The translations under genes and the position numbers were made by a program. This document shows positions 10,092 through 59,815 of a DNA stretch of 64,000 bases, one piece after another. The DNA comes from Polychytrium aggregatum. Its lineage: Eukaryota; Chytridiomycota; Chytridiomycetes; Polychytriales. The stretch's first letter is position 1. Every line of letters begins with the position of its first letter. The DNA is taken from positions 1 through 64,000 of the forward strand of contig NW_026516316.1 of assembly GCF_025602895.1 (NCBI RefSeq). Direction: 5' to 3'. Under the pieces are notes generated by a model. That model did not search any database. It saw nothing but the letters and a program-made list of their open reading frames with translations, and had not been told where the DNA came from.

Positions 10092-10162
10092 GCATGGTTG
10101 GTCCAGTGGTAGAATTGCCGCCTGCCACGCGGCAGACCCGGGTTCGATTCCCGGACCATGCA
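10092..10162 (+). tRNA. tRNA-Gly (GCC), rebuilt by the LINE target duplication
   Basis: A complete 71-nt gene, identical in sequence to the tRNA at 2755-2825. Its first 16 nt are the right copy of the LINE target duplication. Its original 5' flank now lies 5.5 kb away at 4340-4615, so its immediate upstream DNA is the LINE 5' end. Internal A and B boxes are intact, so transcription by Pol III is possible. Confidence 0.95.
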
Positions 10163-22002: not shown

Positions 22003-22628
22003 GTCCCAGAAGAGGGATACATCCGGGTCCGTTGTCCCCTCTGTGCTCACCTTGTCGCCAGGGGCACGAGGACAGGCTCGCGTTCTGTTGTTGCCATGTG
22101 GGCGAATTCGGTGTTTGTGGGTGGGTTGAGGTCGAGACCTGTGGCAACGCATGGCGATATCATTTGCGAATGGCGAGACGCACTGAGATGTGCATGTCGA
22201 GACAACAGCTTGGTCGGCTGTGTTCCTCGCATCCCTCTGTCCTGGTTGCAGCCCACGCACGCCCCTCATCGACTCCAACCCGAGAACATCCTCTGCTCTG
22301 CACTGCATTGCCCTGCCCTGCATTGCACTGCGCTGCTGGATTGGCTTCTGACTTGTTCGGAGTGGACACGCCCAAGAGACAGGCTCCTGCCCGTTCTGAC
22401 CCGGCGAGTCAATCAGTGAATGCCGCGAAACCGCATCGCTGTGGATACTGAGATGTATTGAGGAACAGGCACAGCCTCGATCGACCTTGCCACTCGATCG
22501 GAAAGGAGATGAAACGGAATAGAGTCGATGCTGCTCGCTTGGATGGCTTGCCTGGATGCTCTGCCTCTCTGTCGATCGCCCGCTGCGACACAGATGCTGC
22601 GAGTTGGCTTTTGGGAGAAACTCGTGCA
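22003..22628. other. Region between two minus-strand genes, partly duplicated elsewhere
   Basis: Contains the Sel1 gene 3' flank and the promoter of the secreted coiled-coil gene. From about 22415 rightwards the sequence reappears in inverted orientation at 35845-36193. No gene is supported. Confidence 0.5.
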
Positions 22629-32946: not shown

Positions 32947-35682
32947 TCACGAGCGATTCGTGTGGATAACGACCGGTCGTCGATGTGCCATCACAAGAGC
33001 CCCCGATGCCGTTGTCTGGCGATTCGACCAGTCAAAGAGAGAGAGTGGAATCTGCACAATGCATCGCCCATGCCGGATCCACTGCGAATGCCGATCCTGC
33101 ACGATCCATTCGGCCTGCTCCTGCTCCACACGGCTCCAGCCCGAAGCAGTGCGATGATTCCCAGGTGGCTCTGATGGGACAAACAGATCATCGGCGAGAT
33201 GCCAGAATAGCTGCTGGCCGCACCTCTGGGTGACCGCGATAAACTGTCGGCCGGCAGCAAACTCGACAGACTCCAACGAGTCGGCACAGCTCTCGATCAC
33301 CTGCACTTGCTGCCACCGGGCTGTGTCCCAGATGGTGACGGTGCCGTCGTGAGACGCCGTCGCGAGCATGCTGCTGTCAGGCGAGAAAGCAACGGACGCC
33401 AGATTCGCTCCGTGGGCCTCAAGGATGTGGGTTTGTTGGCCAGCTTCGGCGTCCCATATTCGGACGGTCATGTCGTTGGACGCAGAAGCAATCAGAGAGC
33501 CGCTGGGTGAGGCAGCGATGGTCACGATGCGATCAGCGTGCCCTTGGAGCTTCCACTTCAGCCGACCCGAGCTGAAATCCCAAATCCATAGGGAACTGCC
33601 CTCGGCGTTTGCTGCAATCCACCGGCCATCGGAGGTGACAGAGATGCTGGTGACGCCTTCGGATTGGCCCTCCAGTTTGCGCTTGAGATTGCCGGTAGCC
33701 GCATCCCAGAGCTCGATAGGATTGTCGTCAGATCCAGTGACGATGGTGTTGCCATCAGGAGTCAGAGCAACGGCTCGAACGCAGCGGCTCTGTTGGTTGG
33801 GCACAAAATTGAACGGAAAGGATGTACCGTACACCTTGATGGTTTGATCAGCCGAGCCCGAGACAATCGACTCGCCATCAGGCGAGATCGCCACGGAGAT
33901 GACACTTTCTGTATGTCCTTCGAGAGTGCGTCGCAATTGGCCAGTGGCGACATCCCACATCTTGATGGTCTTGTCGTCAGAACCAGAGACAATCCACCAG
34001 CCATCGGGTGAGATCGCCACAGAGGTCACACGCTCTGTGTGTCCGGCGAGGATGTGTTGCTCTTGGCCCGTGGACGCATACCATATCTTGATGGTCTTGT
34101 CGGTTGAGCCTGAGACAATCAACCTGCCATTAGGAGAGATGGCCACCGAGTTGACATCGCCTGTGTGTCCCTTGAGGGTGCGCTTTACATGGCCATTGAT
34201 GGCATCCCATACTTTGATGGTCCGATCAGTTGAGCCAGATACAATCCACTTGCCATCGAGTGCGATTGCCACAGAGGTAACGGTGCCTGTGTGTCCCTCG
34301 AGACTGTGCTTCAACCCGCCAGTGGAGGCATCCCACAACTTGATGGTCTTATCACCTGAGCCAGAGACAATCCATTTTCCATCGGGTGAGATCACGACAG
34401 AATTGACGCCGTCCGTGTGGCCTTCAAGAGTGCGCTTCAGCTGGCCCGTGGTGGCATCCCACACTTTGATGGTGCCATCTTGAGAGCCAGAGACAATCGA
34501 CTTGCCATCAGGCGAGATTGCGACTGAGTTCACTTCGGCTGTGTGTTCTTCAAGAGCATGTTGATCTTGGCCTGTGGTGGCATCCCACAACTTGATGGTA
34601 CCGTCATCAGAGCCCGAGACAACAATCTTGCCATCGGGTGAGATCGCAACGGAGTTCACTTGGCTCGAGTGACCAGTGAGTGTCACCTCACACGGATCCC
34701 AGGTGGGTGCTGGACCGCAGGTGACCAGGAACGGGATCTTGTCCTCGAGCTGGGTGGCATATGTCTTGTAGATCGCCGTCTCCTTCGGTGTGAATGCATA
34801 CCCCGAGTTGTACACCTGTGGTGCACTCTTGATGACGGGATCGGCAAACTCGCGGATGAATCGATACGTGTCCTTGACCAGTTCCTTTGTGGTGTCGTCG
34901 ACGATGGTGCTGGGTGCCTTGGCGATCACTCCTCGCAGCACAGCCAGTTGCTCGATGATCGGCTTGACCACATGTGTGAGCGACCCACACTCGAGCCAGA
35001 AGAACACATGCGTCTTGACGAACCGAGTGAGCACCGCTGCCACATCGACCATCTCGGTCGACTGCCACACCAGACTCGACTCGGCCACTCCGTCCACACA
35101 CCACACAAAGTGTGTGATCCAGTGGGCGATGCTGTATCGCAGCGACGGTGTGATCGTGGCTGAGACCCTGTCCTCGAGGTCTGGGATATCGTCGTGAAAG
35201 TCGAAGATATCGCAGATGTTGATCACTGGCTCGTGCGAGAGGATCACACCGAGACATCCCTGGGCAAACACCGTGTGGAACGAGCTCGACACATGCCACA
35301 GATGGCCAGTCGATGCGTCGCCGAGGAGATAGTCCGCCACCGACTTGTGGTTGAACTTGACCTCGGTATTGGTGGACGGGCTGCCTCGGGGACCCAGTCC
35401 ATTGGCGCCAGGATCGAGGACCAGACTGAGGCTCTTGAGACACTCGCGAACGACGCCGATCTCGAGTCCAAACACATCGGCGATGATCTGCGGGGTCAGG
35501 ATCGACTGGGCCGTGGCGATCGCCGACACCACCGTGACCAGCTCGGCCGGGTGGCTCGACTGCGAGTGGATCTTGGCGAATGTCTTGTGGTACAGCTGGC
35601 CGACATCGGCGGCGCTGTCGCTGATGTCCTTGATTCTCTGGAGGATCATGCCCAGCATTGGTTCTCTGTTGCCAGCTGCCAT
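32947..35682 (-). CDS. WD40-repeat protein with STAND-type linker but no NACHT domain, 911 aa
   Basis: Residues 1-330 match the region that follows the NACHT ATPase in fungal NLR-like proteins: LYHKTFAKIHSQSSHPAELV, then ILTPQIIADVFGLEIGVVRE and VKFNHKSVADYLLGDAS. Twelve WD40 repeats follow from about residue 335. Repeats 1-7 are very alike (the VNSVAISPDGK...IVSGS...TIKLWDA pattern), and repeats 8-12 are more diverged. No P-loop or Walker B motif occurs upstream; the frame before the first fitting ATG (35682) runs into a Sel1-gene fragment. The gene is therefore best read as the 3' part of a NACHT-WD40 gene that has lost its ATPase, possibly still translated. A GTGAGT at the stop (32945-32940) could be a splice donor to further 3' exons that I could not place. 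Confidence 0.8.
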   Translation of the reverse strand: MAAGNREPMLGMILQRIKDISDSAADVGQLYHKTFAKIHSQSSHPAELVTVVSAIATAQSILTPQIIADVFGLEIGVVRECLKSLSLVLDPGANGLGPRGSPSTNTEVKFNHKSVADYLLGDASTGHLWHVSSSFHTVFAQGCLGVILSHEPVINICDIFDFHDDIPDLEDRVSATITPSLRYSIAHWITHFVWCVDGVAESSLVWQSTEMVDVAAVLTRFVKTHVFFWLECGSLTHVVKPIIEQLAVLRGVIAKAPSTIVDDTTKELVKDTYRFIREFADPVIKSAPQVYNSGYAFTPKETAIYKTYATQLEDKIPFLVTCGPAPTWDPCEVTLTGHSSQVNSVAISPDGKIVVSGSDDGTIKLWDATTGQDQHALEEHTAEVNSVAISPDGKSIVSGSQDGTIKVWDATTGQLKRTLEGHTDGVNSVVISPDGKWIVSGSGDKTIKLWDASTGGLKHSLEGHTGTVTSVAIALDGKWIVSGSTDRTIKVWDAINGHVKRTLKGHTGDVNSVAISPNGRLIVSGSTDKTIKIWYASTGQEQHILAGHTERVTSVAISPDGWWIVSGSDDKTIKMWDVATGQLRRTLEGHTESVISVAISPDGESIVSGSADQTIKVYGTSFPFNFVPNQQSRCVRAVALTPDGNTIVTGSDDNPIELWDAATGNLKRKLEGQSEGVTSISVTSDGRWIAANAEGSSLWIWDFSSGRLKWKLQGHADRIVTIAASPSGSLIASASNDMTVRIWDAEAGQQTHILEAHGANLASVAFSPDSSMLATASHDGTVTIWDTARWQQVQVIESCADSLESVEFAAGRQFIAVTQRCGQQLFWHLADDLFVPSEPPGNHRTASGWSRVEQEQAEWIVQDRHSQWIRHGRCIVQIPLSLFDWSNRQTTASGALVMAHRRPVVIHTNRS

Positions 35683-35839
35683 GCTTCGATGTTGCTGATG
35701 GGGGAAGATGGAATCGAGATTGGGGCAGGGGGAGGACGCTGCTGGCTGGCCTCTCTTGGTGGCGGTGCGCTGCCGGATCCATCCAATGGCTGCTGCGCAC
35801 CCGTGCTTGGTGTCCCCATGGCCCTCGGGCCGGGCAAGG

Positions 35840-36193
35840 CAATTCGTATGGGTCACTTCTGGCAAAACGATGTCGCCGAGGACTTGACCAAGACTGTCGA
35901 GTGGTGTCGGTTGTCGGCCGAACAGGGCCGTCGAGAGTCTCAAGGAACTCGGCAAGTGGCCCTGATGCACGAGTTTCTCCCAAAGGCCAACTCGCAGCAT
36001 CTGTGTCGCAGCATCTGTGTCGCAGCGGGCGATCGACAGAGAGGCAGAGCATCCAGGCAAGCCATCCAAGCGAGCAGCATCGACTCTATTCCGTTTCATC
36101 TCCTTTCCGATCAAGTGGCAAGGTCGATCGAGGCTGTGCCTGTTCCTCAATACATCTCAGTATCCACAGCGATGCGGTTTCGCGGCATTCACC
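35840..36193 (+). pseudogene. Broken inverted copy of the Sel1 gene 3' end
   Basis: On the plus strand the sequence encodes FWQNDVAEDLTKTVEWCRLS, as in the Sel1 protein at 22629-24140. It then jumps by an internal deletion of about 130 nt to the last codons of that gene in a shifted frame. The 3' flank of the donor continues to about 36193. It matches the reverse complement of about 22415-22855 and lies directly before the NACHT-less WD40 gene. Confidence 0.8.
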
Positions 36194-36470
36194 GATGTTG
36201 CCTTTGTGGCCAAGCAGCCGGTCCAGAGCCAAGGCACGCATGCATTTCAGCGTGCGCGACATGCCCGTCTCCCCGCGCTGTGCGTGCTCGGGCTTGGCCA
36301 ATGGGAAAATCGGCGGCTCGGCTGGGCTGGTCCTCGGCAAGTCATGTCGGATGAGAACAGGACGAGAGCGGTGTTGGCAAACGGCGAGATATTCGCATCG
36401 GACGGGATGCGTACTGCAGGAACGAGAGCGGGTCAGAGGACGAGTCGACGGCGCCGAGTGTAGGATATCA

Positions 36471-41368: not shown

Positions 41369-44300
41369 TCAGGCTTCGGAGGTTCTGTGGATTTTGCTGG
41401 GGCCCTTGCTTCTCGTGGCGCACTGCTCGCAGATATCCTTGACCCTCTGCTTGTCTTCCTCATTCTTGGTCTGCATCAGGTACGTCTTGCCACCCTTGCC
41501 GGCCGAAAACACGATTGTGTCGGAGCCACCGCCATCGGCAAACGTGCAGTTGGGCAAATAGACGCAAATCCCGGGCTGGAGCGGCAACAACGATGAAAGT
41601 CATCCATCGTCAGCTTCAATACCACAGTGTCCATTCCAAGGACTTTGCCATCTTGGCGGCGGACACATATAAAAATTAGGAAATGAACCGTTGGCTCCGA
41701 CAACGTTTACCTTGGTGATGACGGTGCGCATCTTCTTTTTGGAAAACTCCTCGAGGTTGCCGCCACCACCGCCGCCACCACCGCCAATTTTCTCCTCTGC
41801 GACGGCCACCGGAAACATGCAGAGGGCCATGTGCTCGGCAACAAAGATGAGGCGACGAGCCTCCCAGGTCGAGAACAAGTTGCCTTCCTCCTTCACCACG
41901 ACATCAACGATGAAGGCGTAGTTGGTCTCGGACTGCTTCGTGGGCGACGCTGCCGTCGACGTCTGGCTGTCTCGAGGTCTACTGACGTGATTTGCGGAGG
42001 ACTGAACTGCCAAGATCAGTCGGCCAAGGTGGCAGTCTGGGCGAGGTTGGTTCGGGGCGTGAGTGTCCGAGGATGAGAGCGGATAAGCAAAAAAAAAAGC
42101 AACAGATGCGCATAACACTGCTGGCCCGATAGATTTCACATCCAGAAGGGGCAATTCAACTTACAGAGCGTGACGAGGATGGCAATCAAGAGAACAATGA
42201 CTCGGATGTAGTACTGCAGAGGGGAGGTGTACATGGGTGAGAATGGGTTCGGTGGGGACGGCCACGGGAGCCGCGAGTGGCAACTCCATCATCGATTTGT
42301 CGATGCGTACATTGCCAGAAGGCGTTCCGTTGCCGGTGGAAAGGATGATGATGACGATGGCTCCACAGAGGATGTTGAAGAGCGAGGTGTAGGTCATCCA
42401 CTTGCTCTCACGGTAGACGCTGTCGACGTTTTGGGTCTTGTATGCAAAGAGCAGAACAGCGAGCTGAAGGACGCTATCGAAAGCAGAGATTGGATAAAAT
42501 TAGAAACAGAGGCCAAGGCCAAGCACTTGAGGTCAACCAAGGAGAACCACGAGGCACAAGCGATTACAGCGATACAAAAACTGGACATGATGTTGCCGCT
42601 TACCCGTTGTACGCTATGAGGGTGTCCATGATGGCATGGCTCGCAGACGTAGAGCTGACGCAATCGTAATAAACGTACGAGCCATTGACGGTGATCAATG
42701 TCGGAACAGGCGGATCAATCGCCATCCACACCGCAAGGAGAATCACATTGACGGACACAACCAGAGCCGTGTATCCAAATAGAACGATGTTGGTCAGAGC
42801 AGATTTCTTGAGCTTCTGATTGTCTGGATGACAAGGATGTGTCAGTTCAACGCTTGGATGTGCTGCTCTTGCGCTGTTGATGCGATGCGCTCGCAGTATC
42901 CGTGTGGTGCTCGCATACCAAAGATCACCCAGATTCGATATGCCTTGACCAGCTGGCTGCCCGTGATCTGGCCGCATGGGCAGCAACGGGATTGAGGGAT
43001 TGTGGGAGTGTGGGATTGTGGGATTGTGGGAGTGTGGGATTGTGGGATTGTGGGATTGTGGGAGTGTGGGATTGTGTGAGTGTGGGATTGATGGTGAGAG
43101 TACATCATTGGGAGAGTTGGTATTGTGAGAGTTGGTATTGTGAGAGTTGGTATTGTGAGAGTTGGTATTGTGAGGAACATCCGATGCTCGCCCAGGTCCA
43201 AGCACACGCTGTCGATCAGACTGGCTCGGTGTCCCGCCAATGCCTTGACTCTCATCCGACATTCCCTCATCGTCGACACTCACAATCGAGAAGCCGAGCC
43301 ATCCGAACCAGTTCTGGAGCTGACAGCTGACAGCCGACATTTTTCCTGTGAAGCCAAAGACCGTCAGCCACAGCAGGACGAGTCCGAGCTGGAGGCAGCG
43401 AGATTGGGTGAAGTGAGATTGGGGGAAGTGAGATTGGGTCAGACGACGTTGGATCGGGAAGCAAGAACACAGATGTGGAGAGGTCAGAGACATGGCGAGA
43501 GTCGTGGCTGGCAAAGCAAGACACAGCGGGCCAGCGAGCCACTCACGCTGATGATCTGGAGGAACGGAGGTGACATGGCTTTGATGGCGGGTGTGTTTGA
43601 CTTGATCAAGACGTATATCCAGCAGAAGAGGGTCGACAGCAGTCCTGAGTGGGTGCGAGTGTGGGTGTGGGTGTGAGTGTGAGTGTGGGTGTGAGTGTGG
43701 GTGTGAGTGTGGGTGATGGATTGTCGGCAGCGATGACGCTTTGCGATTCCCGCACCACCTCACACATTGCACATTGCACATTGCACATTGCTTACCAATC
43801 ATGTAGATGATTATCAGGACGATCGGAGCCGGGTCGGTGTACGCAATATACACCTCAGGGAGGACTGTCGGGTGGCGACCCAATCGCGAGTCAGTCCAAT
43901 GTCGCTCACCAAGATCACAACCAGTGAGTTCCCTGGCCTGGCCGATCCGGTCCCTGCAACATCACCTCGCCGCATCGGTTCCATCGCTCGGCTGTGGCTG
44001 CTCGTCGCCCAGGTGTTTCAAACCAGCACCTTACCGATGTGGTCGGTCGACGGCACGGTCAGTCCTGACGGATAGATCACCGGCTGGATGTCGGTCACAC
44101 TGAGGTTCTGGCTGACCACAGACACAAGGCTCATCGCCGAAGCGTTGAAGATGTAGTTGCCGACAATGTAGTTTCCGATGCGCTCGCCTGCCGAGAATGT
44201 CACCTGGCCGGTTGAGCCAACGAACGGAGTCAGCACCGACGTGACGGCCATCGGGAAGCTTCGGCTTGCAATTGCTGCGACGGTGGTGTTTCCGTTTGCG

Positions 44301-47300
44301 AGGAGCTGGGGTGTTGTTGGGAGCCGGGGACAGCACCGAGGCAGCGACAACGGCGGCAGCACCGAGGCATCGATGGCATCGGTGACATGGACGACATGAT
44401 ATCGAACGAGAAGGCGATGGTGTCAGTGGAGCAAGATCGAAACCGAGAGCCTGATGCATCACCAAGCAGAGCCATTCTGACGGCAATATCATCGCCACAG
44501 AACAAGACACACCTGTTTGATGGCGTATGCCATCCCAAGGACACTGGTGAACGCAACACAAGTCAGCGACAAAGCAGCAGGACAGCAGGACAACAGGACA
44601 GCAGGACAGCAGCACGAGCAAAGGAACCCCGGCCCAGTGATCCACGGCCTGTGGAATGTCGCTGGCAACCAGCAAGAACTGGATTCCTCCACGCAGCCGC
44701 ACATACCAGTCGTATGTGAAGAACATTCCCGGTCGAGGTGCAATGTTGCCGTGGGCCGCCACAAAACTGAGGGTCGAGGGATGTGTTGGAGTCGAGTTGA
44801 CATGGCCGAGTCGGTGGACAGAGTCGAGTTGGTGGGGAGTCAAATGTGTTGTGGGAGGTCAGGAATGCAGCTGAGATGATCAAGTCACAGAGAGTTGCCA
44901 GTTCCTGGTCCAAGTGTCAACCAGACCACACCAGCACACCAGCACACCAGCACACCAGCACACCACCACACCACCACACCACCACACCAGCACACCAGCA
45001 CACCAGCACACCAGCACGCCAGCGTCCATGCCATCGCACTCACCGGTTGTAGATTGACTGAGCGCGAGTGTTGAGAGTTGTTCCAACCTCTTGAGGCATG
45101 ATCGAAACCAACCCCGAAGCCAGCTGCATGTTTGCGGTTGTGTTGTATGGGGTCACGCTGGTCAAGGTGTTGGAAATCGAGTAGGTCGCATCGGATCCAA
45201 TATAGGTGTATCTCGGACCAACAAAGTCATAGATTCTGGTGGTGTGGTTGTGTTGTGGATGGCAGAAGGACGAGATGGCAGAAGGACAGAGTGGCAGAAG
45301 GACAGAGTGGCAGAAGGACAGAGTGGGTGAGACGAGAGAACAGCCGTTCAGGTTGCCGTGACCTGGTCCCATTGCCGTCGCATGGTTGGTGCGCCATCAG
45401 CATCACTCACGCTGCTCGCTCGAGATACAGAATCAGGTCAGTGTCGACCCCGACAAAGACAATGATCTGGTATCCCGTTGCCTTGAGCTTGATGATTTGG
45501 TCGTCGATGTCGGTTCCTGGCGGGACATGATTCAAGGCGGGTGGAGGAATGAAGCAGTGCAGCAGTGCAGCAGTGGGGCAGCGGGATAGAGTCAAGGTGA
45601 GAGACAAGCACGAAGGATGTGAGAAACAAGAGATATGTATCGACAAGAACAACAAGAGATGAGACCAGCACAAACAGGAACAGCATCGAGGTCATGGCGA
45701 ATGTCCCGTGGCTCGTGATCGACCAAAGACTCGCTCGATGGCAAGTCGCTGGGATGGAACGACCCATCAAGCCACTGCAGCTGACCTGTGATCGGGGCGT
45801 TGTATGTTCCGATGGCCTGGACGGTGATCTGCATGTCGATGTATGTGAGTGTGCATCTGGCCATCACCACGAATGCAATGTGTCTGGCGGCTGCCATGTA
45901 TCGCTGCCACTGGTCGCAGGCCCGTCGCAGGCTCGTCACAGGCTCGTCGCCGCAACCCTCGACAGACTCACCCCCATCCCAGGTGCGAGTTGCTGGATTG
46001 CCGCCTGGATACCAAAGCCATATTGGTTTGCCTGGGTTGGGCGAGGTGTGTTGAGCGATTTGGATGGTGAGTGTGAGTTGTGTGCAAAGCGAGGTGAACA
46101 GCGTCAGTTGGTGAGGTGAACAGTGTCAGTCGATCCAAGTGGTCCGCCACCATCAAGCAACAGCGGTATCAAGTAGATAGTGTCGCAACGGTGCCAGCCG
46201 GCCACTCACGGCAATCATCAACAGGATGTTGGACCATCCGCGGGACCGCACAAAGGCCAAGATGGCCGGTGCCTGGAGATTGTCGTTCGGGATGGTTCTG
46301 AGTGGCGACGGAGAGGCAAGTTGGTCAGTAACCAGCACCCACCAACCAGCACCCACCAACCCAGCACCCACCCATTCACTCACCCATTCACTCACCCATT
46401 CACTCACTCACTCACTCACTCACTCACCTGAAAAATGTCGAGTACGAGGACTTGTCCGTCAAGGTGGTTGTGCTGAAGGGGCCGATCGATTCAGGACCGC
46501 AGAGTGAGTATATCGTCATTGGCAATCTCGGGGAACCAGAGGGCAGAGCGCACACCAATGCTGTGCTGATTCGCGGTGTTCGGCCCGGCTGTCCCTGTTC
46601 GTCACTCGTGTGTCCTTACGTGCTGGATCCGCTGCATTGAAGAATCTGTGGCGATGGAATATTGTCATTCCTTTGCCATAGTGTTGTCCTGACCCATGTA
46701 TACACTGAGCATACTTACATTGAACACTTTGCTCACGGGCGCCATTGGCACGGTTATAGTAGAGTAGCTTTGCCCTGTCGCAGCACGCGTTAGCAAATCC
46801 TGTGCTCGTTCCTCCATACCCTCCATACCTCCAAATCCTCAAATCCTCCAGGCCACGTCGCCGTTCCGGCGTCGATTGATCATCACCTATGATTCCAACA
46901 AGCCCTGAGACGCCTGAGAAGCTGACCACGTTTTGAACCGCCGTCCCCTGGATTTCCAAAATTGAGACGCGTGAATTTTCCATCTGGACTGGTTCATCAA
47001 CCCATCCTGCACCTATACTGCCAATATACTCCCGCTACCTTGACCAGTACTTACCACCGACCAAGAGTAGCCCATCCTCGTGAGAAGCGTGATATTGGGC
47101 AGAAGTGTCGGATCGCTGTTGACGTCGTTCACTGCCATGAGGGCAGCCTCGGTCATGGCCGAAACTGTTCAAGCATTCTGCATCAGAACAGTGTCTGTCC
47201 ACCCTCTCCTCCCATCATCGCTGCTTGGACACGTCTCTGGCTTCGGACTGCTGATACGGGGGCATTCTTATCGCCTTCGCATTCGAGCCCCGACATTACT

Positions 47301-47418
47301 TACTCGAGCCGACTTCGGCCAAGGCAATGCCAATGGTGAGGTTGGTGCGCTGGGCATCTCCATGACCAACACAGCAGAGGAGCCAAAGGAGGAGTAGTCG
47401 CAAGCTGAGCAGCTTCAT
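41369..47418 (-). CDS. Class C GPCR with C-terminal PH-like domain (receptor A), 879 aa, 23 exons
   Basis: Exons (minus): 47418-47304, 47164-47055, 46983-46887, 46774-46719, 46645-46620, 46526-46428, 46297-46210, 46031-45972, 45828-45786, 45516-45411, 45235-45044, 44766-44707, 44543-44513, 44305-44035, 43864-43796, 43644-43547, 43388-43284, 42967-42919, 42823-42604, 42473-42311, 42213-42165, 42036-41711, 41575-41369; 2,640 nt, every phase agrees. Signal peptide (MKLLSLRLLLLWLLCCVGHG), then a periplasmic-binding-like ligand domain to about residue 451 (NLTIGIALAEVGS; TIPNDNLQAPAILAFVRSRG; TYDCVLGMAYAIK). Seven TM segments cover about 452-702, including the class C signatures LLSTLFCWIYVLIKSNTPAI, LVKAYRIWVIF and NQKLKKSALTNIVLF. 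The cytoplasmic tail (703-879) holds NLFSTWEARRLIF, a poly-Gly loop and a final helix, resembling a PH fold. GABA-B/mGluR-like receptors signal through G proteins; the ligand is unknown. Confidence 0.9.
42806..46645. repeat. Near-identical 3.8-kb block, copy A (exon 19 edge to exon 5 of receptor A)
   Basis: The segment matches 55361-59146 almost base for base, introns and intronic microsatellites included. A handful of point differences and repeat-length changes are seen. Similarity drops abruptly on both sides, where the two receptors remain homologous but diverged. Confidence 0.95.
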
Positions 47419-48025
47419 TTCAAGCCAAGCCCGCGGGAAATTCGAGGTTGGAAAAAGATACAGGGCGAGACGAGGAGTGTTCGGGGAAGGCAGGCGATCC
47501 TGCTTGATATAGGTTGCCGGAACTTATCTCAACTACGGGCGCCTTGATTGACACCCCGGGTCGACCGCGGGCAGTGTTGGCTCGATTGGCATCGTCCATG
47601 CATGACGGCACCAGAGGGACATTGCATCCATCGACCCCTGTCCCGCTGGGCTGAATCATCCCGTCCGGAGCAGCCGCACGATAGGAATCATCCGCTGGCG
47701 CTGCGGCTCTGATTCTGCTGATATGGCAATTGCTGACTGCGGCATCAATGCGCGGATCGTCGATCGGTATCGTCGCCCAAGAACGATATTGCGAATACTT
47801 CCCGACCCTCACCACCCTCACCACCCTCTTGCTGCCTCCCACTCCCATCGTCCCACGGGTGCATTTCGCCGGCACATCCGATTGGGTTGCCTCTGATCGC
47901 TGCGGCGTCTGCGCAGCATTGTCATTTGCCGGCCAATCACCAGATATCAACTCGCTGCTCACGACATCAGGGCTGCTGTCGAGGCTGCTGCTCTCGCCCT
48001 CATCCTCCAGCAACATCCCGCCACC
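47419..48025. other. Divergent promoter region between receptor A and the MOSC gene
   Basis: About 600 bp between two divergently transcribed genes. A minus-strand frame of 198 codons (47420-48016) has no recognisable features and is taken as chance. Confidence 0.45.
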
Positions 48026-49540
48026 ATGAGTGGCATTACCGTCGTTTCGCTGTTTATCTACCCCGTCAAGTCCTGCAAGGCCGTCCCGCTCCAGGAGGCC
48101 ACGCTGAATGAGTGTTAGTGACGACGTCGATGGCCGCAGTCTTGAACGATCTGAGCCTGCAAACGGCGCTGCTGCACCAACTTGAAGAGGCGCTGCCGCC
48201 CCGACTGACTCTCCTGTCTGGCTCTCTATCTGCCTCGATGGCCACGATTGCCTCTATCCAGTTGGGTTTGAGTTTGACCGTTTCTGGATGATCGTCAAGG
48301 CTGACAACAGTCGAGAAATGGTCACCCAGCGGACCGAGCCAACCCTGGCCCTGGTTGCTCCTCGGCTCGAGGTCAACCCCGGACCTGCAGAAGTGGGTGC
48401 ATATCAGCGAGGTGGCCAGCTCATCCTCTCAGCCCCCGGCAAGCCCGAAATCTCGGTCCCGTTCCGAAAGTAACGTACTGCATCCGCCGCATCCAGTCTC
48501 GCGCTGCCCCGACGCTGACCTTTTCCCATCGACTGCCGCTCGTCGTCACAACGGCCACCAGGTCCTTTGACGGCGTTGCCACTTTCAAGACCTCTGTCTG
48601 GAAGCCCGACAACGTGGAGTGTGTCGACGAAGGAGATGACGTCGCCCAGTGGCTCTCGGATTATCTTGGAAAGCCCGTTCGCTTGGTCGTCAAGTACCCG
48701 CATTCGGTCCGGCCCACATCCCTGCGACACACTCCCGAGCCTTCTCACTTTGAGCACACCGTTCAGGTATCCTGTCGTTCGACCAAGGGGAATAGCACAC
48801 ACCCCGCGTCTTGGCTGCGGATCAACCGTCACGGCGGCGCAGACCCAGAACATGCCTGGTGACAGCTGTCGTGCCATACCCCGCCAAGACTAAAAGCGCA
48901 TTGCCCTTCCCAGACGGCCTTCGCAGACGGATACCCGCTACTGCTTTGCACGACGTCCTCGTTGGAGGCCCTGAACGTCCGGCTCAAGGAAAAGGAGCTC
49001 GATCCCGTAACGATCGTACGGTTCCGGCCCAACGTGGTGGTGCAGGGCCCTCCCGCCCACGACGAAGACGAGTGGAAACGCATCGAAATTGCATCGCATC
49101 CGTTCTTCGTATCGAGCCGATGCACACGCTGCATTATGCCCTCGAACGACCCCGAGACGGGCCGTCTGGGCAGCGAGCCCACCAAGACGTTGATGGGTTA
49201 TCGACGAGTGGACCCAGGGGCCAAGTACGAAGCCTGTTTCGGAATGAACTTGATTCACGGCAAAACAGGCGTGGCTGTCCGGGTCGGTGACTCCCTCTTG
49301 GTCACCGAGCGAACGACACAGCACAACCGGGCAACGGGGTTGTGGCAGAAGGACCCAGTGGCCGAGAAGAAGGCGGCCGACAAGGCGAGAGGGCCGGCCA
49401 AGAAAAGGGACCACTCGGAGAACCCCCGGAAGCCCCGGAAGCGCTCGGCCATGGACCTGATTGCCATCGGTGTCAGCGGCGCCGCTCTGGTGGCCGCCGT
49501 GGGTGTTGTTCTTGCCGTTGCTTTCGCCCGGGCCAAGTAG
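48026..49540 (+). CDS. MOSC-domain (mARC-like) protein with C-terminal membrane anchor, 375 aa, 4 exons
   Basis: Proposed exons 48026-48113, 48262-48469, 48562-48766, 48914-49540 (1,128 nt, in frame). The N-terminal beta-barrel part shows the family start VSLFIYPVKSCKAVPL and FEFDRFWMIV. The MOSC part has EALNVRLKEKEL, RFRPNVVV and SSRCTRCIMPSNDPETG, where a conserved Cys would hold the molybdenum cofactor, and the FGMNLIHGKTGVAVRVGD block. mARC-type enzymes reduce N-hydroxylated compounds with cytochrome b5 partners at a membrane (family knowledge). Animal mARC is N-terminally anchored. Here no N-terminal anchor is seen; instead a basic linker leads to a C-terminal hydrophobic segment (LIAIGVSGAALVAAVGVVLA), suggesting a tail anchor. 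Confidence 0.88.
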
Positions 49541-49800
49541 TATGACGGGCTGTCCCGATGGCCGATGGAGCGCCTGAATATACTCATTTTGTTTCGGCAA
49601 TCGACATCGTGCCCATGCCACTGCAGCGACGATGGCCCCGATCAATGCATTGCCCAGAGCAGCCATCAGGGCCACGGACCCTGGTGTTTCGTTCGCCAAG
49701 GGCAGCCGCTTCGGCCGCTTCGCCACTCTGCCCCCAATCTCGCTCGCTCTGTCCCTGAAACCACCACCGACCGTCTCCAGCCTGCCAAGGATCGGAAGCC

Positions 49801-51626
49801 ATGGTGTGTGAACAAATAATCCACAGCACCCTCTCGCACCGTTCACCGAGCTTCCCGTCCTGACCCAATTCCGGTCTGCCACAACACTGCTGCATCTGTA
49901 GGAGCTGCCCCATCTGGGAGAGCACTGCGATGAAGCCTCCTGCCATCGACTGGGTGAGTCGTGTGGATGGCGCTGTCTCAAATTTGACAGACATACATTG
50001 CTCCGATGCGGAGATCGGGCCTCTATCGAGACTCTAGCAGACATCGACGCTGCTTGGAGCAATCGCCAACCCGGCCTGGTTGCGATGAGCATCATGGCCA
50101 GAGGCTTGAGCTTCCGGCTGGCTGTGCGGCTGACTGTCTGGACTCTGTTAATTCTCTTGACACTGCTACTCTCGCCCGTCTCCACTCGGCATTCACTCGC
50201 CGAATCGATCGCATCGTTCCAGACTTTCTTCCGTACCGCTGCCAATTCTGCACAAAGGTATGGGGCCGATTCTTCTAACGACAGTGACTTGAGCAAAGCA
50301 ATGATCGACTGCTGTGTCGTTTCCCTGCGATTGAGTTGGCGTTTGGTATCGTGCCTGCGACTCGGAGCCGATGAGGAATCTCCGAGCGATGAGGAGAGTG
50401 TGTTAACCATGGCTCTGCTCCTCGTCTCCTCCGGTGAATGCTTGCGCTCTCACTTGCGCTCGCACCGGCCTCGTCATGCAGACTTTCTGGTGAGGCACTG
50501 TTGATAGTATCTGGAGCCGTGCTCACTCGATGCTCCAGCCCTGCTGCGATATCGCCGACGCACTCGCATCTTTGATGAAATGAATCGGATAGCGCATATG
50601 AAGGACCCATCGGCGATCCAACTGACTCGATGACGGCCAGGAGCATCCACTCACCGGATTGATCCCTTTCGCTGCCTTTGCTTCCGCAGCCAGGACCACT
50701 ATCGGCCCAAAGAGCATTCGTGTCCCAATGTCCCCGAGACCCTGGATCGGCAGGCAACCGTCTGTCCGGTCTGCTCGAGGGTTGTGCCCGTGAACCGAGA
50801 CGAAGACCCCAACATCCGGGTCGAGCGACACATTGCCGAGGGCTGTCCCGACCCAGGAACATCAACGCTCTCGGCGCCATCAACGAGAACCAGCTCGCCG
50901 GCTGCAAAGCGACCCGGAACCTGCAGCATGAAAAGGTGCACCAAGAAAGAGCTCGTTCCGATTCAGTGCCCAAGCTGTGGCCGGACGTTTTGCATCCGAC
51001 ATCGCCTGGACGTAGACCACCACTGCGAAGGGATTGGATCCGGTGCGAATGGATCCGGGAGGTCGCCGCTGCCTCGAAACACACCACCTTCGAATCGCAA
51101 AGGGCCAGCCAGCAGTGGGGCCCAGTCGAATCGGTAGGCTCATTGTTCCTCGTCTCATGGAGTCGAATAGAGCGATGTCGGCGGGACCAAATCGAGAGTT
51201 CGAATCAGGGGCGTTCTTGCTGGCACTATTAGCCGACATTCGTCGGCGATGATGTGGCTCGACCATCGGAACGAAAGCTAAGACAGATTCAAACATCCCC
51301 TCGCGGCCATCAGTGGATCCCAGCCATCGCAGCAGCGACAGCCTACTTCAGGCAGCAACCGGAGCGCCGGAACGGTATGGACCCATGCTTTGTCATTTCG
51401 ATCCATCGCCGTGTGAATGTGATGGCAAGGCAGGATGCGAAGCTACCAAATAGCCATTGCGTATCCAAGCAGATTGCATCGTCGCCTTCGTGAGTACCAT
51501 CCACATGACCCCTGATTACTTTGACAATCGATCCGTGCTCGCACCCAGAATCTCACCGAGGAAGAGCAAATCGCCCTTGCGATACAAATGTCATTGGAAG
51601 AGTCTAAGCAAAAAAATGTGAGATGA
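49801..51626 (+). CDS. ZFAND2-like AN1 zinc-finger protein with UIM, about 238 aa, 7-8 exons
   Basis: Proposed exons: 49801-49803 (the ATG only), 49902-49953, 50223-50257, 50482-50489 (8 nt), 50690-51133, 51314-51374, 51454-51489 (optional), 51549-51626. The joined start MELPHLGEHCDEASCHRL is the ZFAND2 start. AN1 finger 1 is completed by the 8-nt exon as CTKTFCQDHYRPKEHSC. A CPVCSRVVPVNRDEDPNIRV linker follows, then AN1 finger 2 (CTKKELVPIQCPSCGRTFC...HRLDVDHHC). The C-terminus carries a ubiquitin-interacting motif, TEEEQIALAIQMSLEESK. ZFAND2/AIRAP-type proteins link the proteasome, p97 and translocation-stress quality control (family knowledge). The joins 51133-51549 are tentative; omitting exon 51454-51489 also keeps the frame. 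Confidence 0.85.
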
Positions 51627-52788
51627 TCGTCCAAGTGGCATCCTGGAGGGGGGGGGAATCAAAGGAAACCGCCGATACCAACCGAGCCAAAGTATGAAGC
51701 AGGCGCTGCATAGGGCCAGTGACTTGGCTATTCGACAGCCAACGGATGTGATCAGATTGAGCTGCTTGTTGTTTGGCCATGTATCGAGAGTCCACCACAC
51801 TAACAAAGCGCTATACCGCATTCCTCGGTGTTCTCTGTGGCCATCCTCATACTGTCCTCTCTCCGCCATAAGCCGCCGTCGGATGCTGGATGCTCGATTT
51901 GCTGACGGCATCCCAAAGCTGGTACTCCAGGGTCAGGATGCCGTGGATGGCCGCTGACTTGAATGGCCAAGAGATCGTGCCTTTCAAAGGAGCTGCTACT
52001 CATGCGGCAGCAATATGGGACACTCTATATATTGGGGAGAGCCACAGCGGGCGCCTCCACTCCATGGATCCGTAGTGGCTATCGCTATGATGCCGAATTG
52101 CAAATAACAAGTTGGATTCAACCAACAGACAACCTGCTGTGCGAGGCGAAATAATGAGCTGCCGCAAGTTGATCGTATACCCTGCCGTGGAAGGGAGGAG
52201 GGCACAAACCGGCATCGATTTCTCAGACACCGTCGCTCGAGCTCGTCGCACTCGGCTCAGGAGTGAATGAGGCAGTGTCCTCGCTCGTGCACAATCGGCC
52301 TGTACACCGATATCATGCCCAGGACCGGACCGGACGGGACCGGCGTGCCGTCAATCGATGACTGGTGTTCGTCCTGGCCGAATCGATGGGTGTCTTGTGG
52401 CAGCTGTTGCCTGGGAATGGATATAGGAGGCATGGCAGCCACGGATATCAAAGTAGCCCGCCACATTTCTTGTTGCCTCGGCTGTTGTTTGCAAATCAAC
52501 CCTGAGTGTGAATAAAGCATCCAACACATCGTGGATGGTATGTATTCAAACTGGTATGCACATGCTCAAAACAGCCGGAAACCCAAGCAATCCAGCCATA
52601 TGCCTGCAGGACCACACCGAGCTTGCCCGTTTAGCCTAAAGTCGAAAGCCGAAACAAAAACAACGATATGCTCTGTCGGGGCCGAAAGGTGCGTAATCAA
52701 CGTCCGAGAGATGTCGGGATGGCGGGTTACAGGCTGCGATACACGGTACGATTGCTGATTCTTTCCATCACAATAGGCGCTGTGTGTT
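51627..52788. other. Convergent intergenic region without a supported gene
   Basis: Short ORFs on both strands lack features. It contains the 3' flanks of the ZFAND2-like and universal stress protein genes. Confidence 0.4.
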
Positions 52789-53642
52789 TTAGTCGTCGGT
52801 CTTGACAATGATGACGCTGGTGCTGGAGTTGTGAGCGAGGTGGTCGGAGACGCTGCCCTGGAGGGCTCTGTCGGAGATCATGTCCAGAGCATAAGCCGGC
52901 CGCCACGGTAATAAAGTGCGAGGGCGTATCAGCAGGAGAAACGACATACGGTGGTTGTGACAGGGCGCAAAGCGATAACGACCCAGTCGGCGATGGGCAG
53001 CAAATCGGGCCACCCTCTCGCCCAGAAACTCGATCAACCAAGCAACCAGCCAACCAGCCAGCCAGCCAGCACAATCTCGAGACGAAAGCAGACCCACCTC
53101 TGGAACGCGCCGATTCCTCGCGATCCGACAACGATGGCGACGACACTGGCGCTCTCGGAGAGTCGAAGGAGCGCATCCCGGGGATCGCCCTTCTGGATGG
53201 TAACACGCAACTGGATGGACTTTGCCACTTCGGCGGAAAGGTACAGCGGGAGTGCCTGGTGGACAACGTCCTCGACGGTCTTGAGACGGGAGGTGAGAGA
53301 TTGAGAGACCATTGCAGTTCGCATATTAGCCCGGAGCACGCCAACAGAGTGCATCGAGTTGGGCATCCTTCAGGATAGATCCGTGCCGCCCTCGAAGCGA
53401 TGGCGCTGGGCAAGGCAACTTACGCGCTCCATATCTCGGAGAACATCGCTGCTCATGTTGTCGGTGACGTGCCCGCCGGCGAGTGCCGGAGTGGCCAGTG
53501 ACTTGGATGCGTGGACCAGGTGAATGGTGTCTCCGGGACGGACAAACTGGCGGAGCGTCCAGAGCAGAACAGGCGAGTTTTTGATGCCGTCCTTGGAGAT
53601 AGTGTCGATGCCAAGAAGGATTTCGCGTTGAGGGGCGCTCAT
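52789..53642 (-). CDS. Universal stress protein (UspA family), 159 aa, 3 exons
   Basis: Proposed exons (minus): 53642-53424, 53279-53098, 52867-52789 (480 nt, in frame). The start REILLGIDTISKDGIKNSPV and the length are typical of a single-domain USP. The nucleotide-binding signature, G-x2-G-x(n)-G-S, is split over the last intron: VVGSRGIGAFQR in exon 2 and LQGSVSDHLAHNSSTSVIIV in exon 3, ending strand VIIVKTDD. USPs bind ATP or other nucleotides and help in stress survival (family knowledge). The exon 2 acceptor at 53280 was preferred because upstream acceptors give stops; a CTAAT branch-like motif and pyrimidine tract precede it. Confidence 0.85.
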
Positions 53643-54140
53643 GGTGCAGGCTGGGTGGTGTTGGAAGCGGGGGGGGGAGACTCGAGAGCTCTGCAAGAAG
53701 AAACGACGGTGTGCCGGTCGATCGATTTGGAATGGTCTGACTTGGGCGGATGGCGGTCTCTGGGGAGCGGCGGGGAGGGCCGGCTTTTGAGAACGGCTGG
53801 CGGCCTGGATGACAGCGAGTCACGGTGACGTCGGTGGCGGTCAGGCGGCCCGGCGAATGAATGCGATCCGATGAACCTCGGGGCCATGCGGGAGGCGGTA
53901 TCCAGCCAACCCATTCCCACCCGCAAGATCGGTCTGCTCTGCGGCGATTGATCCGAGCAAGCGCAGGGATGCGTGCCCATCGCGGCCGCTGTCAAGGACG
54001 TATATTCCGCACGCAGCACGGATACTTGTTCTGCGGATTCCACATGGGACTGGGGCGGGCAGCACCGCGACGCATCTGCGATACCCCGTTGGTCATCCAC
54101 ATCGGGCGAGAGCCTGTTTGGATCGCATGGTCGGTGTCCC
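53643..54140. other. Region between the USP start and the receptor B stop
   Basis: Presumed USP promoter and receptor B 3' flank. No further gene is seen. Confidence 0.4.
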
Positions 54141-57100
54141 TCATGCTTCCACTGTTCTCTTGATGCTCTTGGAGTTCTTGAGTCGATACGTCGCAAGTTC
54201 CTGCAAACACAGAAGCTTCTCCTTATCCTCGCTTGTTTGGAACTCAATGACATAGGTCCGTCCTCCGTGGCCGGTAGAGAATATCAGCTGGTCGCCCGGA
54301 GCATCCTCAATGCTGCAGTTCCTGATTCTGGCGCAAATGCCCGGCTGGATGAAGGAGGCAAGCAGGTAAGCTGTGCTGCGATCACATTGAGGCAAGAAGC
54401 GACTTTGATGCGGCCGATACCGGTCGCATACCCTTTCAATGGCCACCTTCTTTTTGGGAGATTCCGGATGGTCGATGGCTACGGTGTTGGTAGCTCTCAC
54501 CAAGTGCGTTGGATACAAACAAACGTTGGTCTGGTCATTGGAAATGATCAAACGTCGCGCCTCCCAGGTGGAAAATAGGTTGCCTTCTTCCTTGACGACA
54601 ACATCCACGAATGTGTCCGTGCGGGAGTGGGTGGTCTTGCCGGTCACTGCCGATCCTTCATGGTCGTTTTCCATGTGCTTTCCCCACACCGTGCTCGACG
54701 TGAGGATAAGCCGCCCAACATGGCAATCTGGAAGCGAGAGGACATGGTGAGACCGAGGAGGGCAGTCAGACCAGGCCGGGCCACCTCCTGTGACTTACAA
54801 AGATTCAAGAAAATAGCCAACAGCATGAGGATGGACTTGAGGAAGAACTGCGAACCAGATCAAGAGTCAATGAGGGGCCAATCGAGATGCACCCCAAGGC
54901 AAGGCGTGAGCGCCAGCTGATGCGTACATTGCTACTGAGCGTCCCGTTCCCAGTCCAGATCACTATAAAGGCGATGGCTCCACAGAGGATGTTGAAGAGC
55001 GAGGTGTAGGTCATCCACTTGCTCTCACGGTAGACGCTGTCGACGTTTTGGGTCTTGTATGCAAAGAGTAGGACAGCGAACTGGAGTGTACTGCAGAGGA
55101 ACAGAGCGTCAGTCGAATGATTGCGATGCAAGAAAATACGAGCCAGGAGCGGACATACATGTTATAGGCAACGATTGCTCTTGAGAGTATGAATCCCGAG
55201 AATCTGGAGGATGAACAATCGTAATACTGATAGGCTTCATTGACGGTGATAAGGACGGGAACCGGGGGATCAAGGATGGCCCATACAATCAATAGAATCA
55301 GGTTAACAGCCACGATAACGGCTGTGTAGGTGAAGAGAGTGACGTTGCTGAGCAGAATCATCTTGAGCTTCTGATTGTCTGGATGACAAGGATGTGTCAG
55401 TTCAACGCTTGCATGTGCTGCTCTTGCGCTGTTGATGCGATGCGCTCGCAGTATCCGTGTGGTGCTCGCATACCAAAGATCACCCAGATTCGATATGCCT
55501 TGACCAGCTGGCTGCCCGTGATCTGGCCGCATGGGCAGCAACGGGATTGAGGGATTGTGGGAGTGTGGGATTGTGGGATTGTGGGAGTGTGGGATTGTGT
55601 GAGTGTGGGATTGATGGTGAGAATACATCATTGGGAGAGTTGGTATTGTGAGAGTTGGTATTGTGAGAGTTGGTATTGTGAGGAACATCCGATGCTCGCC
55701 CAGGTCCAAGCACACGCTGTCGATCAGACTGGCTCGGTGTCCCGCCAATGCCTTGACTCTCATCCGACATTCCCTCATCGTCGACACTCACAATCGAGAA
55801 GCCGAGCCATCCGAACCAGTTCTGGAGCTGACAGCTGACAGCCGACATTTTTCCTGTGAAGCCAAAGACCGTCAGCCACAGCAGGACGAGTCCGAGCTGG
55901 AGGCAGTGAGATTGGGTGAAGTGAGATTGGGGGAAGTGAGATTGGGTGAAGCGAGATTGGGTCAGACGACGTTGGATCGGGAAGCAGGAACACAGATGTG
56001 GAGAGATCAGAGACATGGCGAGAGTCGTGGCTGGCAAAGCAAGACACAGCGGGCCAGCGAGCCACTCACGCTGATGATCTGGAGGAACGGAGGCGACATG
56101 GCTTTGATGGCGGGTGTGTTTGACTTGATCAAGACGTATATCCAGCAGAAGAGGGTCGACAGCAGTCCTGAGTGAGTGTGAGTGAGTGTGAGTGTGAGTG
56201 TGAGTGTGAGTGTGGGTGTGAGTGTGGGTGTGAGTGTGGGTGATGGATTGTCGGCAGCGGTGACGCTTTGCGATTCCCGCACCACCTCACACATTGCACA
56301 TTGCACATTGCTTACCAATCATGTAGATGATTATCAGGACGATCGGAGCCGGGTCGGTGTACGCAATATACACCTCAGGGAGGACTGTCGGGTGGCGACC
56401 CAATCGCGAGTCAGTCCAATGTCGCTCACCAAGATCACAACCAGTGAGTTCCCTGGCCTGGCCGATCCGGTCCCTGCAACATCACCTCGCCGCATCGGTT
56501 CCATCGCTCGGCTGTGGCTGCTCGTCGCCCAGGTGTTTCAAACCAGCACCTTACCGATGTGGTCGGTCGACGGCACGGTCAGTCCTGACGGATAGATCAC
56601 CGGCTGGATGTCGGTCACACTGAGGTTCTGGCTGACCACAGACACAAGGCTCATCGCCGAAGCGTTGAAGATGTAGTTGCCGACAATGTAGTTTCCGATG
56701 CGCTCGCCTGCCGAGAATGTCACCTGGCCGGTTGAGCCAACGAACGGAGTCAGCACCGACGTGACGGCCATCGGGAAGCTTCGGCTTGCAATTGCTGCGA
56801 CGGTGGTGTTTCCGTTTGCGAGGAGCTGGGGTGTTGTTGGGAGCCGGGGACAGCACCGAGGCAGCGACAACGGCGGCAGCACCGAGGCATCGATGGCATC
56901 GGTGACATGGACGACATGATATCGAACGAGAAGGCGATGGTGTCAGTGGAGCAAGATCGAAACCGAGAGCCTGATGCATCACCAAGCAGAGCCATTCTGA
57001 CGGCAATATCATCGCCACAGAACAAGACACACCTGTTTGATGGCGTATGCCATCCCAAGGACACTGGTGAACGCAACACAAGTCAGCGACAAAGCAGCAG

Positions 57101-59815
57101 GACAGCAGGACAACAGGACAGCAGGACAGCAGCACGAGCAAAGGAACCCCGGCCCAGTGATCCACGGCCTGTGGAATGTCGCTGGCAACCAGCAAGAACT
57201 GGATTCCTCCACGCAGCCGCACATACCAGTCGTATGTGAAGAACATTCCCGGTCGAGGTGCAATGTTGCCGTGGGCCGCCACAAAACTGAGGGTCGAGGG
57301 ATGTGTTGGAGTCGAGTTGACATGGCCGAGTCGGTGGACAGAGTCGAGTTGGTGGGGAGTCAAATGTGTTGTGGGAGGTCAGGAATGCAGCTGAGATGAT
57401 CAAGTCACAGAGAGTTGCCAGTTCCTGGTCCAAGTGTCAACCAGACCACACCAGCACACCAGCACACCAGCACACCAGCACACCAGCACACCAGCACACC
57501 ACCACACCAGCACACCAGCACACCAGCACACCAGCACACCAGCACGCCAGCGTCCATGCCATCGCACTCACCGGTTGTAGATTGACTGAGCGCGAGTGTT
57601 GAGAGTTGTTCCAACCTCTTGAGGCATGATCGAAACCAACCCCGAAGCCAGCTGCATGTTTGCGGTTGTGTTGTATGGGGTCACGCTGGTCAAGGTGTTG
57701 GAAATCGAGTAGGTCGCATCGGATCCAATATAGGTGTATCTCGGACCAACAAAGTCATAGATTCTGGTGGTGTGGTTGTGTTGTGGATGGCAGAAGGACG
57801 AGATGGCAGAAGGACAGAGTGGCAGAAGGACAGAGTGGCAGAAGGACAGAGTGAGTGAGACGAGAGAACAGCCGTTCAGGTTGCCGTGACCTGGTCCCAT
57901 TGCCGTCGCATGGTTGGTGCGCCATCAGCATCACTCACGCTGCTCGCTCGAGATACAGAATCAGGTCAGTGTCGACCCGACAAAGACAATGATTTGATAT
58001 CCCGTCGCCTTGAGCTTGATGATTTGGTCGTCGATGTCGGTTCCTGGCGGGACACGATTCAAGGCGGGTGGAGGAATGAAGCAGTGCAGCAGTGCAGCAG
58101 TGGGGCAGTGGGATAGAGTCAAGGTGAGAGACAAGCACGAAGGATGTGAGAAACAAGAGATATGTATCGACAAGAACAACAAGAGATGAGACCAGCACAA
58201 ACAGGAACAGCATCGAGGTCCTGGCGAATGTCCCGTGGCTCGTGATCGACCAAAGACTCGCTCGATGGCAAGTCGCTGGGATGGAACGACCCATCAAGCC
58301 ACTGCAGCTGACCTGTGATCGGGGCGTTGTATGTTCCGATGGCCTGGACGGTGATCTGCATGTCGATGTATGTGAGTGTGCATCTGGCCATCACCACGAA
58401 TGCAATGTGTCTGGCGGCTGCCATGTATCGCTGCCACTGGTCGCAGGCCCGTCGCAGGCTCGTCACAGGCTCGTCGCCGCAACCCTCGACAGACTCACCC
58501 CCATCCCAGGTGCGAGTTGCTGGATTGCCGCCTGGATACCAAAGCCATATTGGTTTGCCTGGGTTGGGCGAGGTGTGTTGAGCGATTTGGATGGTGAGTG
58601 TGAGTTGTGTGCAAAGCGAGGTGAACAGCGTCAGTTGGTGAGGTGAACAGTGTCAGTCGATCCAAGTGGTCCGCCACCATCAAGCAACAGCGGTATCAAG
58701 TAGATAGTGTCGCAACGGTGCCAGCCGGCCACTCACGGCAATCATCAACAGGATGTTGGACCATCCGCGGGACCGCACAAAGGCCAAGATGGCCGGTGCC
58801 TGGAGATTGTCGTTCGGGATGGTTCTGAGTGGCGACGGAGAGGCAAGTTGGTCAGTAACCAGCACCCACCAACCCAGCACCCACCCATTCACTCACTCAC
58901 TCACTCACTCACTCACTCACTCACTCACCTGAAAAATGTCGAGTACGAGGACTTGTCCGTCAAGGTGGTTGTGCTGAAGGGGCCGATCGATTCAGGACCG
59001 CAGAGTGAGTATATCGTCATTGGCAATCTCGGGGAACCCGAGGGCAGAGCGGACACCAATTCTGTGCTGATTCGCGGTGTTCGGCCCAGCTGTCCCTGTT
59101 CGTCGCCCGTGTGTCCTTACGTGCTGGATCCGCTGCATTGAAGAATCTGACGATTGTCATAATGGCATTAGACCCAAGTCGCTCACACGCCCACACCGTC
59201 ACGTAGTCTTACATTAAACACGCTCGAAATCGGAGCCATCGGCACCGTGATAGCAGAATAACTTTGCCCTATCAACATAGATTATCATCAGCGTCAGTTT
59301 TGCGTTCGATCGTTCGCTTCAGAAAATCGTGGATGCTCCTTACCTATGATTCCAAACAGGCCTGGTATTTGTGCGAACGAAATCACGTTCCGCACCGCCG
59401 TTATCTGCCGATTATCAATCTCCGTGAGAACCACCGTGCGCCTCGACCCCTCTGACGGCCACAACCATGCGCGTCACATACAATCGACCAGGAATGAAGC
59501 GTCGTCGCGACAAGTGTGATGTTGGGCAGAAATGTCGGATCGCTGTTGATGTCGCTTATAGCCATCTGAGCAGCTTCATTCATCGCCAGAACTTGTCGTC
59601 CGCACGATTGGGATCCGGTGGCCAGTGTCGTTAACATTTGGTTGCTGCACATCACCACGAAATTCCCAGGACCAGCAATCACAAGAGCATCGATACTCAC
59701 TCGAGCCGATCTCAGCCAGCGCTATTCCGATGGTCAGGTTCACATTCTGTGCCATTCCTGGCTGAGCGATCCTGGCTATTACCAGGAAAGCGAATAACTT
59801 GCCCCATAAACGCAT
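54141..59815 (-). CDS. Class C GPCR with PH-like tail (receptor B), frameshifted in exon 10
   Basis: Exon plan is the same as receptor A. Unique exons: 59815-59701, 59591-59482, 59449-59344, 59268-59213 at the 5' end; 55378-55159, 55090-54928, 54847-54799, 54727-54432, 54344-54141 at the 3' end. The middle exons lie in the block shared with receptor A (55361-59146). Signal peptide and ligand-domain start are present (LFAFLVIARIAQPGMAQ, NLTIGIALAEIGS), as are TM4-7 (NQKLKMILLSNVTLF) and the PH-like tail (NLFSTWEARRLII, GGRTYVIEFQTSEDKEKL). In exon 10 a run of four C in copy A (45448-45451) is three C here (57976-57978). This shifts the frame to a stop at 57961, after about 261 residues. All unique exons are intact, so the copy may be newly broken, or the base may be a sequencing error. 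Intact length would be 871 aa. Confidence 0.8.
55361..59146. repeat. Near-identical 3.8-kb block, copy B
   Basis: Direct-repeat partner of 42806-46645, about 12.5 kb away. It is 54 bp shorter, mainly from microsatellite length changes (the GAGTGTGGGATTGTGG tract, the CACACCAGCA tract and the CTCA tract). It carries the 1-nt deletion at 57976-57978. Confidence 0.95.

Follow-up and report, generated by a model that had tools for sequence, protein, structure and literature searches.

The first 64,000 nucleotides of contig NW_026516316.1 of the chytrid Polychytrium aggregatum (assembly GCF_025602895.1; the window) contain two tandem paralogs, here called gene A and gene B, that encode class C G protein-coupled receptors (GPCRs). 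The question raised by this locus is how two genes can be almost identical over an internal core of ~3.8 kb while both of their ends are strongly diverged (Table 1). Very probably, repeated interlocus (non-allelic) gene conversion keeps the cores of A and B alike after an ancient tandem duplication of the entire gene.

In a self-comparison of the window, positions 43020-46648 and 55543-59149 were 97.2% identical over 3656 columns, and positions 42797-43129 and 55350-55682 were 91.7% identical. A four-way alignment with the second haplotig described below (A1 and B1 in the window, A2 and B2 on the other contig) gave 96-100% identity between A and B in the core (bins of 200 columns), 90-92% where a bin straddles the left border and about 36-79% outside. 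One border coincides with the start of exon 5 and the other falls ~17 bp inside exon 19; at each of them the identity drops within about 20-40 bp. The near-identical 3.8-kb core proposed in a previous reading of the sequence alone is borne out by these comparisons, and its assignment to exons 5-18 with their introns and microsatellites holds with the same exon numbers in our 23-exon model. The binned identities and the comparison of exon groups exclude an even divergence along the pair.

Outside the core the identity of individual exons is 47-85% and the non-coding DNA is barely alignable. Between A1 and B2 the nucleotide identity is 99.7% for exons 5-18, compared with 64% for exons 1-4, 57% for exon 19, 85% for exon 20 and 54% for exons 21-23. 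The amino acid identity of A and B2 is 60.5% in exons 1-4 (the first 114 residues), 54.8% in exon 19, 83.3% in exon 20 and 44.3% in exons 21-23. Because fourfold degenerate sites of A1 and B2 differ frequently in the ends (exons 1-4, 17 of 37 sites; exon 19, 12 of 17; exon 20, 6 of 21; exons 21-23, 20 of 25) and at only 1 of 220 sites in exons 5-18, the ends appear to be old whereas the core looks young. The sharp borders and the loss of third-position divergence are seen directly, as is the presence of the core in both haplotigs. An identity tract that begins and ends abruptly and covers silent as well as intronic sites is characteristic of interlocus gene conversion. Selection on the protein can be ruled out as the cause of the core identity, since introns and silent sites are alike as well; the homogenised introns show that the process does not need such selection. 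Variable columns are rarer in the exons of the core (9 of 1260) than in its introns (48 of 2434; p 0.003), as expected from purifying selection on the homogenised protein.

The divergence of the ends is not continuous. The sequence-only reading had described exons 1-4 and the later exons (TM4-7 and tail) as different; this is correct for exons 1-4, 19 and 21-23 and has to be corrected for the initial ~17 bp of exon 19, which belong to the core, and for a near-identical island in exon 20. Accordingly, transmembrane segments (TM) 4-7 do not differ throughout. The exon-20 island is probably a separate or older conversion tract.

The genome search covered an assembly of 64.7 Mb in 418 contigs, in which the window is part of contig C18. 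Contig C37 is colinear with C18 over ~79 kb (C18:4605 to 84000, the end of the compared stretch), with four large pieces that are 98.7-99.7% identical; a 667-column piece has 97.5% identity, and a piece of the core in which microsatellites differ has 94.3%. It carries A2 and B2 with the same core borders as on C18, and many of the class C GPCR matches in the genome occur in contig pairs of this kind. We read C37 as the other haplotype of the C18 region. A search with 45040-46648 gave four matches (all 4 candidates scored), two each on C18 and C37. With 42806-44806 as query these four came up again as long matches, together with some sixty short microsatellite matches; neither search (for the latter, the best 40 of 58 scored) gave a third close copy of the core. 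The matching exon layout of A and B and the presence of only four copies in the genome search rule out that the core is a mobile insert. It is also unlikely that the core exists in a single copy that was duplicated by the assembly, a possibility which the sequence-only reading had left to be checked, since the second haplotig (~0.24% divergence in single-nucleotide polymorphisms (SNPs) in the flanks) has both copies with the same borders, as seen in the contigs. No closer relative of the coding parts of A (next best 57% over 47 amino acids) or of the ends of B (next best 39% over 78 amino acids) was found elsewhere in the genome; thus, the ends were not recently imported from another gene in the assembly.

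Within the core, 22 SNP columns split the four copies 2:2. Nine of them separate A from B, 4 separate one haplotig from the other and 9 group A1 with B2 against A2 with B1. They are arranged in blocks with 5 switches (permutation p 5e-5). At the 13 columns of the latter two groups the same two bases are polymorphic at both loci, compared with 0.081 columns expected from independent mutation at even rates; 9 are retained after masking of ±10 columns around gaps, 3 with ±40 columns and 6 after masking with Tandem Repeats Finder (TRF), where the expectations are 0.019-0.051. Outside the core no shared polymorphism was found in 2507 columns, a control of low power with only 5 and 11 heterozygous columns. 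Given a correct assembly, polymorphism shared between the loci is directly observed here and marks interlocus gene conversion. The paralogs differ by 0.75-1.23% in the core and the alleles by 0.71 and 0.97%, the latter being ~3-4 times higher than the allelic difference of 0.24% in 62,600 flanking columns (0.14-0.38% by region). Variants passing between the loci would explain both that paralogs are about as different as alleles and that the allelic diversity is raised in the core. The shared polymorphisms, the blockwise mosaic of A1, A2, B1 and B2 and the separate exon-20 island support gene conversion over a simple recent duplication, as had been argued before; the view that conversion was repeated rests on the shared polymorphisms and the island.

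We propose that A and B arose long ago, when a complete class C GPCR gene was duplicated in tandem, and that their coding ends and flanking DNA diverged subsequently, with the exon layout largely preserved. Conversion between direct repeats 12.6 kb apart, across an 8.7-kb spacer with three genes, would then have kept ~3.8 kb evolving in concert. The transfers probably proceeded without crossover, because a crossover would delete or duplicate the three spacer genes and both haplotigs retain the spacer and both genes. The exchange may have been bounded by the loss of homology at the ends, where pairing would have failed, and continued exchange would have kept the core alike; the border positions fit tracts that end where intron or codon homology is lost. 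Gene conversion is a well-known process, and the A/B locus is the same in kind as the concerted evolution of duplicates with shared polymorphism outlined in passages of a review (PMC3924837), at a new locus. The receptor pair itself looks new: a literature search gave no fungal pair of class C GPCRs with gene conversion among the matches listed from open-licence papers.

Several observations weigh against gene conversion. Of the 9 fixed A/B differences, 7 are found no further than ~250 bp from the right border, and the left border has no such cluster. The allelic excess in the core of A is not significant when columns within 40 of a gap are removed (0.39%, p 0.15), whereas that of B remains significant (0.58%, p 0.004); this mask was applied to the core only, with the flanks unmasked, and near-gap columns carry part of the excess. 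The flank regions themselves vary from 0.14 to 0.38%, several shared sites are found in microsatellites or next to them, and the clustering shown by the permutation test is favoured by linkage alone as well. Furthermore, the four cores are known from the assembled contigs of one genome.

The alternative that survives best, which we nevertheless regard as improbable, is an artefact of assembly or polishing in which reads of A and B were mixed, so that the true cores are less alike than the assembled ones. The cluster at the right border is expected from conversion, with fewer transfers near a border, and also from read mixing that was halted only at the unique flank. The frameshift of B1 described below is positioned in a short homopolymer run, a typical site of errors, and the core sequences depend on the assembly. 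However, the assembly kept haplotigs with ~0.24% SNP divergence separate over ~79 kb, for which long and accurate reads would be needed; the four cores can be told apart by SNPs and microsatellite lengths and have private variants in clusters, and the borders are the same in both haplotigs. Even less likely is one single recent replacement of the core of B by that of A, or the reverse, followed by ordinary divergence. One tract could span the core and its divergence is low, but one fixed copy would not leave the same two alleles segregating at both loci, as found at the 13 shared columns, and the exon-20 island with its own divergence requires another event or a larger earlier tract. We give almost no credence to the view that the whole gene was duplicated recently and that its ends were afterwards replaced from, or selected toward, other sequences: A and B are indeed mutual closest relatives in the genome, but neither end has a close coding donor there (the coding ends were searched), introns, upstream and downstream DNA are diverged as well as codons, and fourfold differences in the ends are numerous.

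The exon model of gene A was obtained from a codon-usage scan with splice sites picked by hand, and its frame is open in both haplotypes (A1 and A2). An earlier model of 838 amino acids matched 7tm_3 at residues 447-690 (E 3.5e-42; 145.3 bits, cut-off 33.5) and ANF_receptor, the Venus-flytrap ligand domain (6e-21; 75.3 bits, cut-off 25.4). The best relatives of the 820-residue model in the PDB are the mGlu receptors 4, 7 and 5 with E ~1e-28 to 1e-30. The products of A and B are assigned to the class C (glutamate-family) GPCRs, with predicted ligand binding and dimeric signalling. Gene B was modelled on the plan of A, and several exon ends were set by hand by analogy. In 20 of the 23 exons the lengths are equal; in B1, exon 10 lacks one base, exon 23 lacks three and exon 22 has 146 bases compared with 239. 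In B1, the copy in the window, the missing base in the short homopolymer run of exon 10 shifts the frame, while A1, A2 and B2 are open, which rules out a pseudogene pair for these three copies. Either an assembly error or a null allele may explain the frameshift. It is accompanied by three private silent SNPs in the same exon (57939-58043).

By analogy with related receptors, we take the core to encode residue 115 through the remaining ligand domain, TM1-3 and the first part of the second intracellular loop, exon 19 the TM4-5 region and exon 20 the third intracellular loop. Most mGlu-type ligand contacts presumably fall in the core-encoded part, and the QSYS motif in exon 4 is identical in A and B; it is therefore plausible that both bind the same or a similar ligand. 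The outcome would be a pair of receptors almost identical in ligand domain and TM1-3 but different in TM4-5, tail and signal peptide. The suggestion of the sequence-only reading that they share a ligand and differ in signalling output is plausible with the qualification that the first 114 residues are outside the core and that exon 20 is largely shared.

Receptor pairs in which gene conversion keeps the ligand-binding region alike, with a differing signalling part, are described for Siglec-11/Siglec-16 (PMC5701461) and for the CEACAM family (PMC2832619). The anatomy of A and B resembles theirs, with a ligand region largely kept alike, probably by conversion, and a diverged putative signalling part, which is an analogy and not membership. 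The pattern fits in part: the core is alike, exons 1-4 of the ligand domain differ and exon 20 is largely shared. Unlike A and B, which are predicted seven-transmembrane (7TM) class C receptors with conversion reaching into TM1-3 and known from sequence, the Siglec and CEACAM pairs are mammalian immune receptors with opposite signalling types. We tentatively consider, as a rather doubtful possibility, a fungal GPCR paired-receptor system in which ongoing conversion would hold the sensing core the same, new core variants would meet two differing signalling ends and selection would maintain the arrangement.

Class C repertoires have been reported in Blastocladiomycota and Chytridiomycota by Krishnan et al., with 78 glutamate-family members in Allomyces macrogynus and 14 in Spizellomyces punctatus (PMC3251606). 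As far as the excerpts of that paper extend, these receptors of zoosporic fungi share with A and B the ANF-type ligand domain, the class C 7TM domain and the membership in a large repertoire; the members described there are strongly diverged, in contrast to the A/B core, and the term "gene conversion" does not occur in those excerpts. The A/B locus is a clean natural case in which the marks of conversion lie inside a receptor gene, with sharp borders and on two haplotigs of one genome. It suggests that the sensing and the answering parts of a GPCR can be under different evolutionary regimes. Phylogenetic trees based on the core of such receptors would misdate the duplication.

Table 1 Positions of genes A and B, their parts and the intervening genes in the window
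Feature	Position	Strand	Description
Gene A, class C GPCR	41369..47418	-	23 exons, 820 aa, ANF_receptor + 7tm_3
Diverged 3' end of A	41369..42805	-	remainder of exon 19 and exons 20-23 (TM4 onward, tail)
Exon-20 near-identical island in A	42355..42466	-	112 bp, 97.3% with B, surroundings diverged
Homogenised core in A	42806..46648	-	exons 5-18, introns, microsatellites, first ~17 bp of exon 19
Diverged 5' end of A, exons 1-4	46649..47418	-	signal peptide (by eye) and first part of ligand domain
MOSC-domain gene between A and B	48305..49540	+	open stretches; Pfam MOSC E 1.7e-16 on 48863-49540
ZFAND2/AN1 zinc-finger gene stretch between A and B	50634..51137	+	Pfam domain match
Usp-like gene stretch between A and B	53034..53819	-	Usp match on 53034-53369
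Gene B, tandem paralog of A	54141..59815	-	23 exons; B1 copy frameshifted, B2 copy 788 aa
Diverged 3' end of B	54141..55360	-	
Exon-20 island partner in B	54972..55083	-	
Homogenised core in B	55361..59149	-	
Diverged 5' end of B, exons 1-4	59150..59815	-	

The three unrelated genes that were said to separate A and B are indeed present at the level of domains, being known as matches of open stretches and not as exon structures. A MOSC_N match on 48305-48862 is weak and below the cut-off. The Usp match has an E-value of 9e-5 and 23.5 bits, 0.5 bit short of the cut-off of 24, and the second open stretch of the Usp-like gene had no Pfam match.

Short tandem repeats found by TRF occur in 8 of the 14 introns of gene A from exon 5 to exon 19 (42988-46427; in B 55543-58928), and the array at 43649-43715 has look-alikes at dozens of places in the genome. 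The class C locus L028, used as a DNA query, matched its own near-identical contigs (99-100%), paralogs with 72% identity and repeats that were dispersed or short (best 40 of 1199 candidates); no second tandem pair of this kind was present among these 40 matches, with neighbouring paralogs on C35 and C382 outside the comparison. A dispersed repeat of up to ~380 bp lies at positions 209-591 of L028; many contigs of the genome carry matches to it that are 81-97% alike. Another locus, L019, encodes a class C GPCR of 1089 amino acids in one open frame, the N-terminal domain of which we take, by eye, to be PstS-like rather than ANF-like. Chitin synthase and radial-spoke genes are found in the same genome; together with its many class C GPCR matches they suggest a zoosporic fungus.

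Elsewhere in the window, 32947-36156 on the reverse strand encodes a large WD40-repeat protein with repeats ~73-80% alike in DNA (33831-34665), and this gene may undergo repeat exchange itself. The window contains five tRNA genes; two of them, both tRNA-Gly(GCC) (2754-2825 and 10092-10163), share an identical 77-bp stretch in opposite orientation ~7.3 kb apart. An inverted repeat of ~270 bp, 93% alike (22412-22674 and 35919-36196), is perhaps the remnant of a mobile element.

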